This document shows, in pieces, positions 28,463 to 63,371 of a stretch of 64,000 nucleotides of DNA; the first letter of the stretch is position 1; every line of letters begins with the position of its first letter. Made by a program: the position numbers and the translations under genes. Source of the DNA: Siphonodentalium dalli (lineage: Eukaryota > Mollusca > Scaphopoda > Gadilida > Siphonodentaliidae). The stretch covers positions 276,079,426 through 276,143,425 of the forward strand of contig CP136063.1 of the NCBI GenBank assembly GCA_032622095.1. The letters run 5' to 3'. The notes under the pieces are model-generated. The model was not told the origin of the DNA. It made no database searches and worked only from the letters and a program-made list of their open reading frames with translations.

Positions 28463-28880
28463 GGTCCGAAGATCAAAATTGACCCCACCCCAGTAATACT
28501 TAATCCTAAAGGATTAAGTATTACTGGGTGTGGGGTAAATTTTTGTGTTGGGGACCTGTGATCATATCCAGGTGCTGAAATTCTAGAAAGGCCCCTCTAA
28601 AGGTCCTCACAGATGATGTGGTGAGCAAACTTTGAGATAGGGTGTCTGTCATTTGCAGAATGAGGTCCCCAGAGGGAGAATTTAGTGATGCTACCCCGCA
28701 TAGCGGGCTAGCATCACCAAATTCACCCTCTGGGAACCTCATTCTGCTAAGGTGTAAGCAGAATGAGGTCCCCAGAGGGTGAATTTGGTGATGCTAGCCC
28801 GCTATGCGGGGTAGCATCACTAAATTCACCCTCTGGGGACCTCATTCTGCAAATGACAGACACACTATTTCAAGGCTTGT
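28463..28880. mobile_element. Short palindrome plus double-unit 'GAATGAGG' MITE
   Basis: 28463-28558: 'caggtccgaagatcaaaatt' mirrored around 'aatcctaaaggatt'. From 28625 to 28880 there is a full copy of the MITE described at 23118-23360, with the same ends and two hairpins. No gene lies in 27641-28462; two G/C homopolymers (28243-28255 and 28294-28304) are present there. Confidence 0.75.
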
Positions 28881-46020: not shown

Positions 46021-46236
46021 TTAGTACAGAAACGATTAAACAATGATACAAACACAATAGAACAATTTCAAAACAGAGTGTTGTCATTGGTCCATAGTGA
46101 CATTCCTCTGGATAATAATTCCATTTGTTTAGTTATGCTTGCCCTGCTAACTATGGGCGGGGATGCCCTGCTAAACTATGGATGGGATGCACTGCTAATA
46201 ATGCGTGGGGATGCCCTGTATGAAACATGAACTCAC

Positions 46237-46321
46237 ACAAAGAAGAATCTTGTACAAACGTAGTTTTCTTCTGGACACACCCAAATACTGTTGTTTTTCT
46301 TTAGATCAGGCCATTCAATCA
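46237..46321 (-). CDS. PARP6/8-like, penultimate exon
   Basis: An 85-nt exon with acceptor ctattttcag above 46321 and donor GT|GTGAGT. It encodes IEWPDLKKNNSIWVCPEE and then NYVCTRFFFV. The family form here is EVIT..DL.KHG.IWV.P...HVCTRFFFVYEDG. The first two bases complete the Val codon begun at 48547. This part replaces the catalytic-Glu loop of polymerising PARPs, and no Glu is seen at the start of the FFFVYED strand, in keeping with the mono-ADP-ribosylating PARP6/8 group. Confidence 0.95.
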
Positions 46322-48546: not shown

Positions 48547-48604
48547 CTTCACATAAGGCAATACAATTTAAGTTGGTACTCTGAAGAAATCTAGAATCTT
48601 GTCC
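48547..48604 (-). CDS. PARP6/8-like internal exon
   Basis: A 58-nt exon with acceptor ccctgtcacag-like above 48604 and donor G|GTGAGT at 48546. It encodes GQDSRFLQSTNLNCIALCE. PARP6/PARP8 have SRFLQSRNLNCIALCEV at this place. It starts in phase 0, as the preceding exon (51351-51458) ends. The longer linker found here in vertebrate PARP6 is shorter or absent. A small missed exon between 48605 and 51350 cannot be excluded. Confidence 0.93.
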
Positions 48605-51350: not shown

Positions 51351-51458
51351 CTTGGTCCCTTTGTTTGTATGTGAACCATAGCCCATTCTAGAATAACTAA
51401 ATGATGTGCTAGAATCTGGGCTCAAATAGATTCCTTTACCATAGGCTGCCCCATTGCA
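51351..51458 (-). CDS. PARP6/8-like exon with the catalytic Tyr motif
   Basis: A 108-nt exon, phase 0 at both ends, with acceptor attttcag above 51458 and donor AAG|GTATGT. It encodes CNGAAYGKGIYLSPDSSTSF and then SYSRMGYGSHTNKGTK. GAAYGKGIYLSP is diagnostic for the PARP6/8 catalytic domain. The Tyr of 'GIY' is the second residue of the H-Y-x NAD+-binding triad. It follows the exon at 60390-60462 across an 8.9-kb intron holding the fold-back element. Confidence 0.97.
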
Positions 51459-59783: not shown

Positions 59784-60396
59784 AAGAATCATGCCAAAAT
59801 AGGTTATTTTCATAAATTTCATATCAAAATAGGTATTAAACAGGGTCATTGTTATATACAAATTACATGCAGTGACTATAGGCAGAATCATTACCGTAAT
59901 GTTTCTGCCCAATAACTCTTCCCGAATAAAGTAGAAATTATTTACAATTGTGCTTAGTTCAAATGTCGTATTCTTTGAAATGGTACACTCGATGTGGTTG
60001 GAATTTTCTATATTAAATCTTAGATGATTTCTACATTCTTCCAGGGGAAATAGAGTTTGGATACTCATTTATACGTTTTATTCACTAAAAAGTCCATGAT
60101 ATGTCTTTAAATTTTCTCATGATATAAAAACTAAAAAGAATGAGCCAGAATGTGAGAAATTTTTTTTAATTTTTTATTTAACATATTTTATTGCTCTTTA
60201 ACATATAGCAATAAGATTGGGGGACAAGTGCTGGGGCACCTAATCTTCCCTCCTCTCCAAACACAAATCTATCATAAAAATGATGACAAAACGAAAGTAA
60301 CATGAGCATACAAAATAATGCTTGAATTAATTTACAAAGTAACAGAAATAAAATGACTAAACTTATAAAAAAAAAGATGAGAGACAGACCTGGAAC
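59784..60396. repeat. Segmental duplication, right copy (partner 48949-49796)
   Basis: It ends inside the PARP exon at 60390-60462 and includes that exon's donor site. It lacks the TTAA MITE found in the left copy. Confidence 0.9.
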
Positions 60397-60462
60397 TTTG
60401 TCCCTGAGGCGACAACCAAACCGTTTCTGATAATGGAATGCCAGTTCTCTATTCCCGATCCA
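60390..60462 (-). CDS. PARP6/8-like exon completing the catalytic His codon
   Basis: A 73-nt exon with acceptor gtatttcag above 60462 and donor CAG|GTCTGT. It encodes GSGIENWHSIIRNGLVVASG and then TKFQ. PARP6/8 have HGSRIENWHSILRNGLVNAS. The first base (T) completes CA|T, the His of the HGS motif that starts the H-Y-x triad and contacts NAD+. A tandem copy of its 5' half lies just upstream at 60513-60564. Confidence 0.97.
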
Positions 60463-60512
60463 CTGAAATACACAAGAAAGTTTATACTATAATACATAAT
60501 CTAATTTATTCT

Positions 60513-60564
60513 GACAACCAAATCGTTTCTAATAATGGAATACCAGTTCTCTATTCCCGATCCA
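60513..60564 (-). pseudogene. Duplicated half-exon of the PARP gene with an intact acceptor
   Basis: A 102-bp tandem duplication (60411-60512 and 60513-60617) copies the acceptor and the first ~50 nt of the exon. The copy keeps tttcag|TGG and reads GSGIENWYSIIRNDLVV (His to Tyr, Gly to Asp), then RIN and TAG. It has no donor. In transcription its acceptor comes before the real one at 60462. Use of it would bring a stop codon. Confidence 0.9.
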
Positions 60565-60689
60565 CTGAAATACACAAGAAAGTTTATACTATAAATACAT
60601 AATCTAAATTATTCTGATATAATGCCTAATATATTCCTTACATAAATTATAAATACCCAATCCTACTTGGCAGAATATCAAGCCTGAGT

Positions 60690-61135: not shown

Positions 61136-61180
61136 TGTTCCCGGAGGGAATTACTCAAGCTGAATTTAGAAGAAAGTGTT

Positions 61181-62504
61181 GTTAACTTACTGAAAGGCGT
61201 ATGTGCTTCCATGTTTGTTATTAACTTACTGAAAGGCGTATGTACTTCCATGTTTGTTGTTAACTTACTGAAAGGCGTATGTGCTTCCATGTTTGTTGTT
61301 AACTTACTGAAAGGCGTATGTGCTTCCATGTTTGTTGTTAACTTCTGAAAGGCGTATGTGCTTCCATGTTTGTTGTTAACTTACTGAAAGGCGTATGTGC
61401 TTCCATGTTTGTTGTTAACTTACTGAAAGGCGTATGTGCTTCCATGTTTGTTGTTAACTTACTGAAAGGCGTATGTGCTTCCATGTTTGTTATTAACTTA
61501 CTGAAAGGCGTATGTGCTTCCATGTTTGTTGTTAACTTACTGAAAGGCGTATGTGCTTCCATGTTTGTTGTTAACTTACTGAAAGGCGTATGTGCTTCCA
61601 TGTTTGTTATTAACTTACTGAAAGGCGTATGTACTTCCATGTTTGTTGTTAACTTACTGAAAGGCGTATGTGCTTCCATGTTTGTTGTTAACTTACTGAA
61701 AGGCGTATGTGCTTCCATGTTTGTTGTTAACTTACTGAAAGGCGTATGTGCTTCCATGTTTGTTATTAACTTACTGAAAGGCGTATGTACTTCCATGTTT
61801 GTTGTTAACTTACTGAAAGGCGTATGTGCTTCCATGTTTGTTGTTAACTTACTGAAAGGCGTATGTGCTTCCATGTTTGTTGTTAACTTACTGAAAGGCG
61901 TATGTGCTTCCATGTTTGTTGTTAACTTACTGAAAGGCGTATGTGCTTCCATGTTTGTTGTTAACTTCCTGAAAGGCGTATGTGCTTCCATGTTTGTTGT
62001 TAACTTACTGAAAGGCGTATGTGCTTCCATGTTTGTTGTTAACTTACTGAAAAGTGTATGTGCTTCCATGTTTGTTGTTAACTTACTGAAAGGCGTATGT
62101 GCTTCCATGTTTGTTGTTAACTTACTGAAGGCGTATGTGCTTCCATGTTTGTTGTTAACTTCCTGAAAAGCGTATGTGCTTCCATGTTTGTTGTTAACTT
62201 ACTGAAAGGCGTATGTGCTTCCATGTTTGTTGTTAACTTACTGAAAAGTGTATGTGCTTCCATGTTTGTTGTTAACTTACTGAAAGGCGTATGTGCTTCC
62301 ATGTTTGTTGTTAACTTACTGAAAGGCGTATGTGCTTCCATGTTTGTTGTTAACTTACTGAAAGGCATATGTGCTTCCATGTTTGTTGTTAACTTACTGA
62401 AAAGCGTATGTGCTTCCATGTTTGTTGTTAACTTACTGAAAGGCGTATGTGCTTCCATGTTTGTTGTTAACTTACTGAAAGGCGTATGTGCTTCCATGTT
62501 TGTT
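61181..62504. repeat. 39-bp array of 34 copies of a PARP exon end plus its 5' splice site
   Basis: On the minus strand the unit is the last 26 nt of the exon at 62515-62627 (AAACATGGAAGCACATACGC plus CTTTCA) followed by the first 13 nt of the intron (GTAAGTTAACAAC). Spacing is 39 bp throughout except two single-base deletions (about 61342 and 62129), so 34 extra copies lie downstream of the real one. Three lack the GT (about 61341, 61967, 62160); 31 keep GTAAGTTAA. Other variants are few ('ggcg' to 'agtg' or 'agcg', 'gtt' to 'att', 'gtgc' to 'gtac'), implying recent expansion. It opens long repeat frames on both strands, regarded as artefacts. Confidence 0.97.
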
Positions 62505-62514
62505 GTTAACTTAC

Positions 62515-62627
62515 TGAAAGGCGTATGTGCTTCCATGTTTTGCTTTGGCTGCTCGGAATGCTGCTTCTTTGGCAGGTGGACTTGACAGCAATACGAACTG
62601 ATGAGTCGTGTGCATAAAGTTCAGCCT
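62515..62627 (-). CDS. PARP6/8-like exon ending in the catalytic His codon
   Basis: A 113-nt exon with acceptor tatcttacag above 62627 and donor CA|GTAAGT at 62514. It encodes RLNFMHTTHQFVLLSSPPAK, then EAAFRAAKAKHGSTYAF, and ends with CA of the His codon. The family form is LKFM.T.HQF.LL.SPP.KE..FR.AKK..GS.FAFHGS. Its last 26 nt are the source of the 39-bp array that directly follows. If this donor is skipped, the next in-frame codons are CAG TAA, a stop, so only this first donor gives enzyme. Confidence 0.97.
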
Positions 62628-63322: not shown

Positions 63323-63371
63323 CCTCTCTGGTTGTAGCTTTACGATGTGTGATCTGTTACTGGTAATTATC
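63323..63371 (-). CDS. PARP6/8-like exon (SNRSHIVKL)
   Basis: A 49-nt exon with acceptor ttttcacag above 63371 and donor AGG|GTGAGT. It encodes IITSNRSHIVKLQPER. PARP6/8 have WIISSNRSHIVKLP at the start of the catalytic domain. Its first base completes a codon begun in an exon beyond the window. The seven exons found add up to 194 residues plus stop. Confidence 0.93.

Follow-up and report, generated by a model that had tools for sequence, protein, structure and literature searches.

The 64,000-nucleotide stretch of the Siphonodentalium dalli genome analysed here (the window, C3:276079426-276143425 of an assembly of 2.23 Gb in 9 contigs) carries, on its minus strand, part of a PARP gene in which one intron opens with 35 tandem copies of the junction between the preceding exon and the intron itself. 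Boundary repeats of this type, known as 'mirages', have been described in the amphioxus genes Adh3, BflGb6 and BflGb9, the latter two encoding globins (PMC3087553), and the PARP array is an extreme example of this already named kind. It is very probably a recent, near-neutral mirage of the donor type, in which the spliceosome would be expected to act at the outermost, authentic site. A further result is that several unrelated genes of this genome carry boundary arrays, of both donor and acceptor type. Such arrays of near-identical splice sites offer natural tests of spliceosomal choice among equivalent sites; with RNA from the animal, the effects of exon definition and of competition between sites could be followed gene by gene. 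The arrays also illustrate both intron growth and where unstable repeats can sit in genes while leaving the reading frame unbroken.

Anatomy of the donor array

Tandem Repeats Finder (TRF) detects an array of 39-bp period at 61177-62540, with 35.0 copies and 97% matches. Direct parsing of the minus strand and alignment of the units resolve the mirage (61178..62540) into 35 head-to-tail units, 39 bp long in 33 cases and 38 bp in two; the leading unit is the genuine exon end with its donor. The initial annotation had described the unit as 26 nt of exon end joined to 13 nt of intron start, and comparison of exon and array confirms this: the two agree over 26 nt on the exon side, to AAACATGG, and over 13 nt on the intron side, to GTAAGTTAACAAC, and intron sequence resumes past the last copy. 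Its estimate of 35 copies with about 31 of the 34 extra donors intact is likewise reproduced exactly, GTAAGTTAA being intact in 32 of the 35 units when the authentic donor is included. Exon placement and a frame check locate the authentic 5' splice site, GTAAGT, at 62509..62514, cut between 62515 and 62514; the 31 intact decoy GTAAGT donors lie within 61185..62475, with the first G of the series at 62475 and that of the last decoy at 61190. GT is absent from the other three units, in which CATGG starts at 62186 and 61992 (T>G at +2) and at 61368 (1-bp deletion).

Only 18 of the 1365 cells of the unit alignment (1.3%) are non-consensus, and 23 of the 35 aligned units, the authentic one among them, match the consensus exactly; so few differences, with an exon copy that is itself the consensus, indicate a young array. 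There are ten unit types, arranged in a non-simple order. A search of the 2.23-Gb genome with exon plus donor, which ignores very common words and so bounds visible matches only, returned 34 matches, every one at the PARP locus, and the unit is therefore not a dispersed repeat. As sequence the array is far beyond chance, while it is less exceptional given a repeat-rich genome, TRF arrays with a period of at least 12 occupying 12% of the 84 kb around it.

Reading frame and the consequences of decoy use

The array follows a PARP-domain exon of 113 nt (E_d, 62515..62627), which reads RLNFMHTTHQFVLLSSPPAKEAAFRAAKAKHGSTYAF plus the first two bases of a His codon and ends in the donor CA/GTAAGT, where '/' is the splice junction. 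The following exon (E_e, 60390..60462; GSGIENWHSIIRNGLVVASGTKFQ) opens with T/GGATCG at 60462; since E_d ends in CA and the first base of E_e is T, the split codon is CAT, a histidine that we take to be the catalytic one. When E_d, E_e and the next exon, E_f, are joined, the resulting 98 amino acids score 52.6 bits for the PARP catalytic domain of Pfam (PF00644; cut-off 26.7), which bears out the proposed identity of the gene; a single 37-residue exon alone gave no Pfam match. A single open frame runs across the six joined exons from E_b to E_g. The best solved chains for the joined exons are of PARP16, with PARP6 and PARP8 unnamed among the 46 sequences listed; to judge from its motifs, the gene may be of the PARP6/PARP8 type.

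If used in place of the authentic donor, every one of the 31 intact decoys would give a CAG-TAA stop at one common codon, two codons past the last Phe of E_d, just as the initial annotation had read the frame. Open frames that run through the array, such as NMEAHTPFSKLTT repeats, were considered as a coding repeat and rejected, because a 39-bp unit easily leaves a frame open and the frame of the host gene meets an immediate stop.

The decoy hexamers show no sign of selection within the donor array, where they are conserved to much the same extent as the rest of the unit: changes affect 3 of 210 cells in the GTAAGT hexamer and 15 of 1155 elsewhere. Nor does RNA folding single out the authentic donor, which is unpaired at 0.442 against 0.425-0.467 for the 13 of the 31 intact decoys contained in the stretch folded. 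No feature was seen that marks the real donor apart from its outermost position and its junction to the exon body.

Further boundary arrays in the PARP gene

The same intron also ends in a mirage, of the acceptor type (60411..60617, minus strand; TRF, 102-bp unit, 2.0 copies, 95% matches). This duplication presents a decoy acceptor and part of E_e before the real acceptor is reached, and the decoy exon copy, which starts at 60564, runs into a stop. A larger acceptor array, of about 50-bp units, lies upstream of the exon E_a at L010:4648-5719 (TRF, 21.7 copies; coordinates above 64000 and those beginning L009 or L010 refer to the flanking pieces L009, 64001-74000, and L010, 74001-84000). It places 21 TTCAG/TT acceptor sites before E_a, of which one is real and 20 are decoys. 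At its far end a degenerate further copy can be read; 19 of the 20 decoys would introduce a stop into the E_a frame. With 92 of 1050 cells differing, it is more diverged than the donor array.

The donor of exon E_b, CAATG/GTAAGG, occurs twice in tandem and then twice again about 1 kb deeper in the intron. The 46-bp duplication thus appears as two tandem pairs, at L009:2026-2115 and 1034-1131, with an array of four 170-bp copies and a tetranucleotide run between them. In all, TRF finds boundary copies at 4 of the 16 boundaries of the eight PARP exons placed, two at donors and two at acceptors. A further array, of 24 bp x 3.3 (window 46140-46218), begins about 18 bp past the donor of exon E_h and does not cross it.

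Boundary arrays in other genes

Arrays of this kind were also sought at exons of two gene families, with 30 loci taken from 123 kinesin matches and 26 from 85 myosin matches. Of the 30 kinesin loci, 2 have an array that spans an exon boundary: a donor array of 60 bp x 3.1 (L040) and one of 31 bp x 2.0 whose unit includes the donor but very little of the exon, only a few bases (L020). The myosin sample likewise gave 2 of 26, two arrays that are alike (L047 and L049, 67 bp x 2.1) and lie on the donor side, judged from unit and translation. The loci are not independent, since some overlap or are paralogues. In addition, an array of 127 bp x 5.0 adjoins, on the acceptor side, an exon that matches SNF2 with 47 bits against 24.9 (L067, C6:220293900-220294900).

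The whole genome was also surveyed with a pattern of three AGGTAAGT separated by gaps of 10-40, the pattern read backwards serving as control. It gave 1168+769 (1937) matches against 636+685 (1321) reversed, a ratio that is only a hint because matches overlap within arrays, and most of the hits come from a satellite and a small number of long arrays. The matches listed all fall on C1, in 11 clusters by eye, and the 5' side was read in 10 of them; the eleventh, a 26-bp satellite, showed array only, its 5' end lying beyond the sequence read. Among these listed clusters, the array is preceded by an open frame flanked by acceptor and donor in 4 of 11, with one more possible, and no exon was seen in 6 of 11, including the satellite and related dispersed minisatellites.

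A USP47-like gene (L068, C1:65905) has a donor array of 41 bp x 11.0 beside an exon that matches USP47_C with 47.9 bits against 27. At L071 (C1:250508; C1:250507600-250508400) an exon ending in HCHAGLG, which matches phosphatase families below cut-off only, stands before a donor array of 47-bp units. Among the matches listed, this array extends over about 2.1 kb, which on division by the unit length gives roughly 45 copies, and is longer than the PARP array. An array of 43 bp x 7.6 follows an exon-like frame with no family match above cut-off at L069 (C1:123799), while at L079/L070 (C1:145005xx) an acceptor, open frame and donor stand before the array, the L079 exon again giving no match above cut-off. 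L076, with 27 bp x 3.0 and no family match, is a possible further case.

Arrays are not concentrated at the sampled exons. Exon windows (the match and 60 bp on either side) that overlap any TRF array number 2 of 30 for kinesin, against 5.8 expected from flanking windows, and 2 of 26 for myosin, against 3.9; these exons hold, if anything, fewer arrays than expected, and those present extend across a boundary. With summed unit length per base as the measure, the probability that a given boundary lies inside a unit comes to 1.6% for kinesin, 1.3% for myosin and 2.5% for the PARP region.

Comparison with known boundary repeats

Intron minisatellites and alternative splicing are reportedly the subject of one study in C. 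elegans. The closest likeness is to the amphioxus mirages, which share the exon-intron boundary anatomy of the PARP array and to which troponin C has been added, imperfect repeats in PGBD5 being likened to them (PMC3902484). The PARP array has units of minisatellite size that span an exon-intron boundary, the terminal copy being the real one, and many of its copies, although not all (32 of 35), keep the splice signal. It differs in scale: the PARP gene repeats a 39-bp donor unit 35 times and presents 21 acceptor sites, whose units are of about 50 bp, whereas the two haplotypes of BflGb6 carry 6 and 3 repeats with units of 150-160 bp and the units of Adh3 measure 10-72 bp (PMC3087553). The boundary repeats of amphioxus were reported without disturbed splicing (PMC3087553, PMC3902484). 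From the same precedent, it is plausible that copy number varies between individuals, as the initial annotation had proposed for the PARP array.

Outside amphioxus, the literature searched, as far as the texts drawn on extend, gave boundary repeats only in human and potato. The human CBS variant 844ins68 is a tandem 68-bp copy of an intron-exon junction, with normal mRNA and one copy strongly favoured (PMC2630376); unlike the PARP array it is a single extra copy, a human polymorphism, and lies at the intron 7/exon 8 junction, for which that paper speaks of 'splice donor sites' yet cites work on 3' splice site selection. Variable internal tandem repeats are likewise reported at exon-intron boundaries in segmentally duplicated human genes; these differ in that they can give alternative splicing and new introns and belong to recent primate paralogues (PMC2812944). 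In a potato gene, duplication across an intron-exon boundary created a new intron (PMC4974935), whereas the PARP array lies inside an existing intron, across which the exon frame runs on, and has only enlarged it.

Origin of the array and alternative explanations

A donor-type mirage of this kind would originate in one tandem duplication of a segment spanning the exon-intron junction and expand inside the intron through slippage or unequal exchange. The working site would remain the outermost copy, which is continuous with the exon body, and the others would leave with the intron, exon definition (by the exon body and the acceptor 113 nt upstream) directing U1 and U6 to the first donor. Because use of a decoy adds CAG-TAA and destroys the product, the array can persist only if decoys are used rarely enough.

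Several points weigh against this account. The use of the first donor is deduced from sequence, and 22 of the 34 extra units are identical to the authentic unit over all 39 bases, so that no local feature explains why the first donor should win. An assembly error in copy number is possible, the array being known from a single assembly. In the older acceptor array before E_a, TTCAG, the last five columns, is unchanged in 21 of 21 units, which could hint at constraint on the acceptor decoys; the hint is weak, since 24 of the 50 columns are invariant, and TTCAG also served as the anchor for cutting the units, whose lengths of 47-50 show that none was lost thereby.

A genomic preference for duplicating exon-intron junctions over other DNA, arising for instance from breakage linked to transcription or splicing, seems to us unlikely. 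The excess of forward AGGTAAGT triplets would agree with such a preference, as would the 4 of 16 boundaries in the PARP gene, where about 0.4 are expected from the unit density of the surrounding 84 kb; however, this gene was chosen for its array, and the triplet counts owe most to a few long arrays and the satellite. Across kinesin and myosin exons, which were not picked for arrays, about 1.6 events are expected at 112 boundaries (assuming two per locus, not individually checked) and 4 were seen, or 3 if the alike myosins count as one, a difference that is not significant.

The initial annotation had suggested that the array tunes PARP through nonsense-mediated decay, the transcripts from decoy donors being lost and array length setting the level of the enzyme. 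The immediate stop from all 31 intact decoys and the identity of so many extra units with the real one speak for such a rheostat, but the absence of visible selection on the decoy hexamers, the arrays of the same kind in unrelated genes and the regular splicing reported for amphioxus weigh against it, and we consider it quite improbable. Boundary arrays of other sequence in other genes indicate a general repeat process and not PARP regulation.

That the array or its copy number is an artefact of a mis-assembled short repeat is more improbable again. Copy numbers of tandem arrays are often wrong in assemblies, and one of the globin mirages was aberrantly assembled in the draft genome (PMC3087553); against this stand the ten unit types in non-simple order at a single locus and the comparable arrays present in other genes.

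The other role suggested by the initial annotation, a U1-binding sink, or a U1-rich platform that might for example shield the transcript from premature intronic polyadenylation, has 32 U1-matching hexamers within 1.36 kb in its favour and is nonetheless scarcely credible: acceptor-type arrays, which on this view would offer U1 no site, are equally frequent in the PARP gene (two against two), the hexamer changes and the similar arrays in other genes give it no support, and thirty-odd U1 sites are negligible beside the nuclear pool of U1 and ordinary donors.

With the donor-type mirage as the preferred reading, a broader proposal can be put tentatively, though we rather doubt that it holds in full: that many genes of this animal have had junctions amplified into arrays of up to tens of donors or acceptors, with the outermost copy winning and position alone distinguishing identical sites.

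Remaining exons and other repeats

The eight exons, E_a to E_h, were placed on the window and the 20 kb upstream, and the list is possibly incomplete between E_a and E_b and past E_h. All lie on the minus strand. E_a (78677-78582), E_b (66221-66088) and E_c (63323..63371, IITSNRSHIVKLQPER) precede E_d; downstream of E_e follow E_f (51351..51458, CNGAAYGKGIYLSPDSSTSFSYSRMGYGSHTNKGTK), E_g (48547..48604, GQDSRFLQSTNLNCIALCE) and E_h (46237..46321, VIEWPDLKKNNSIWVCPEENYVCTRFFFV), the last of which lies outside the joined translation.

Eleven muscle-myosin matches, at model positions of about 376-435, lie close together at C4:274.2-275.5 Mb and are a tandem myosin cluster; each contains one TAG, which may be intron read beyond the donor. 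Two attempts at a lineage marker did not discriminate: a myosin exon compared with solved structures scored about equally with its best chain, 2ec6 from scallop, and with human Myosin-7, and the haemocyanin domain gave no match here or in the control genomes. The 26-bp satellite occupies C1:231979802-232057384 (its first part lies in L072 and L080), some of its units carrying AGGTAAGT, and no exon was seen in the pieces read. Similar minisatellites with CAGGTAACCA and AGGTAAGTG occur at three distant places on C1 (L073, L074 and L078) and are apparently a dispersed tandem-repeat family. Finally, a repeat of about 100 bp (GCAGAATGAGGTCCCCAGAGGG...) recurs at window 28655-28850, L009:6151-6345 and L010:6273-6466; its ends look inverted and it is probably a short non-autonomous transposon.
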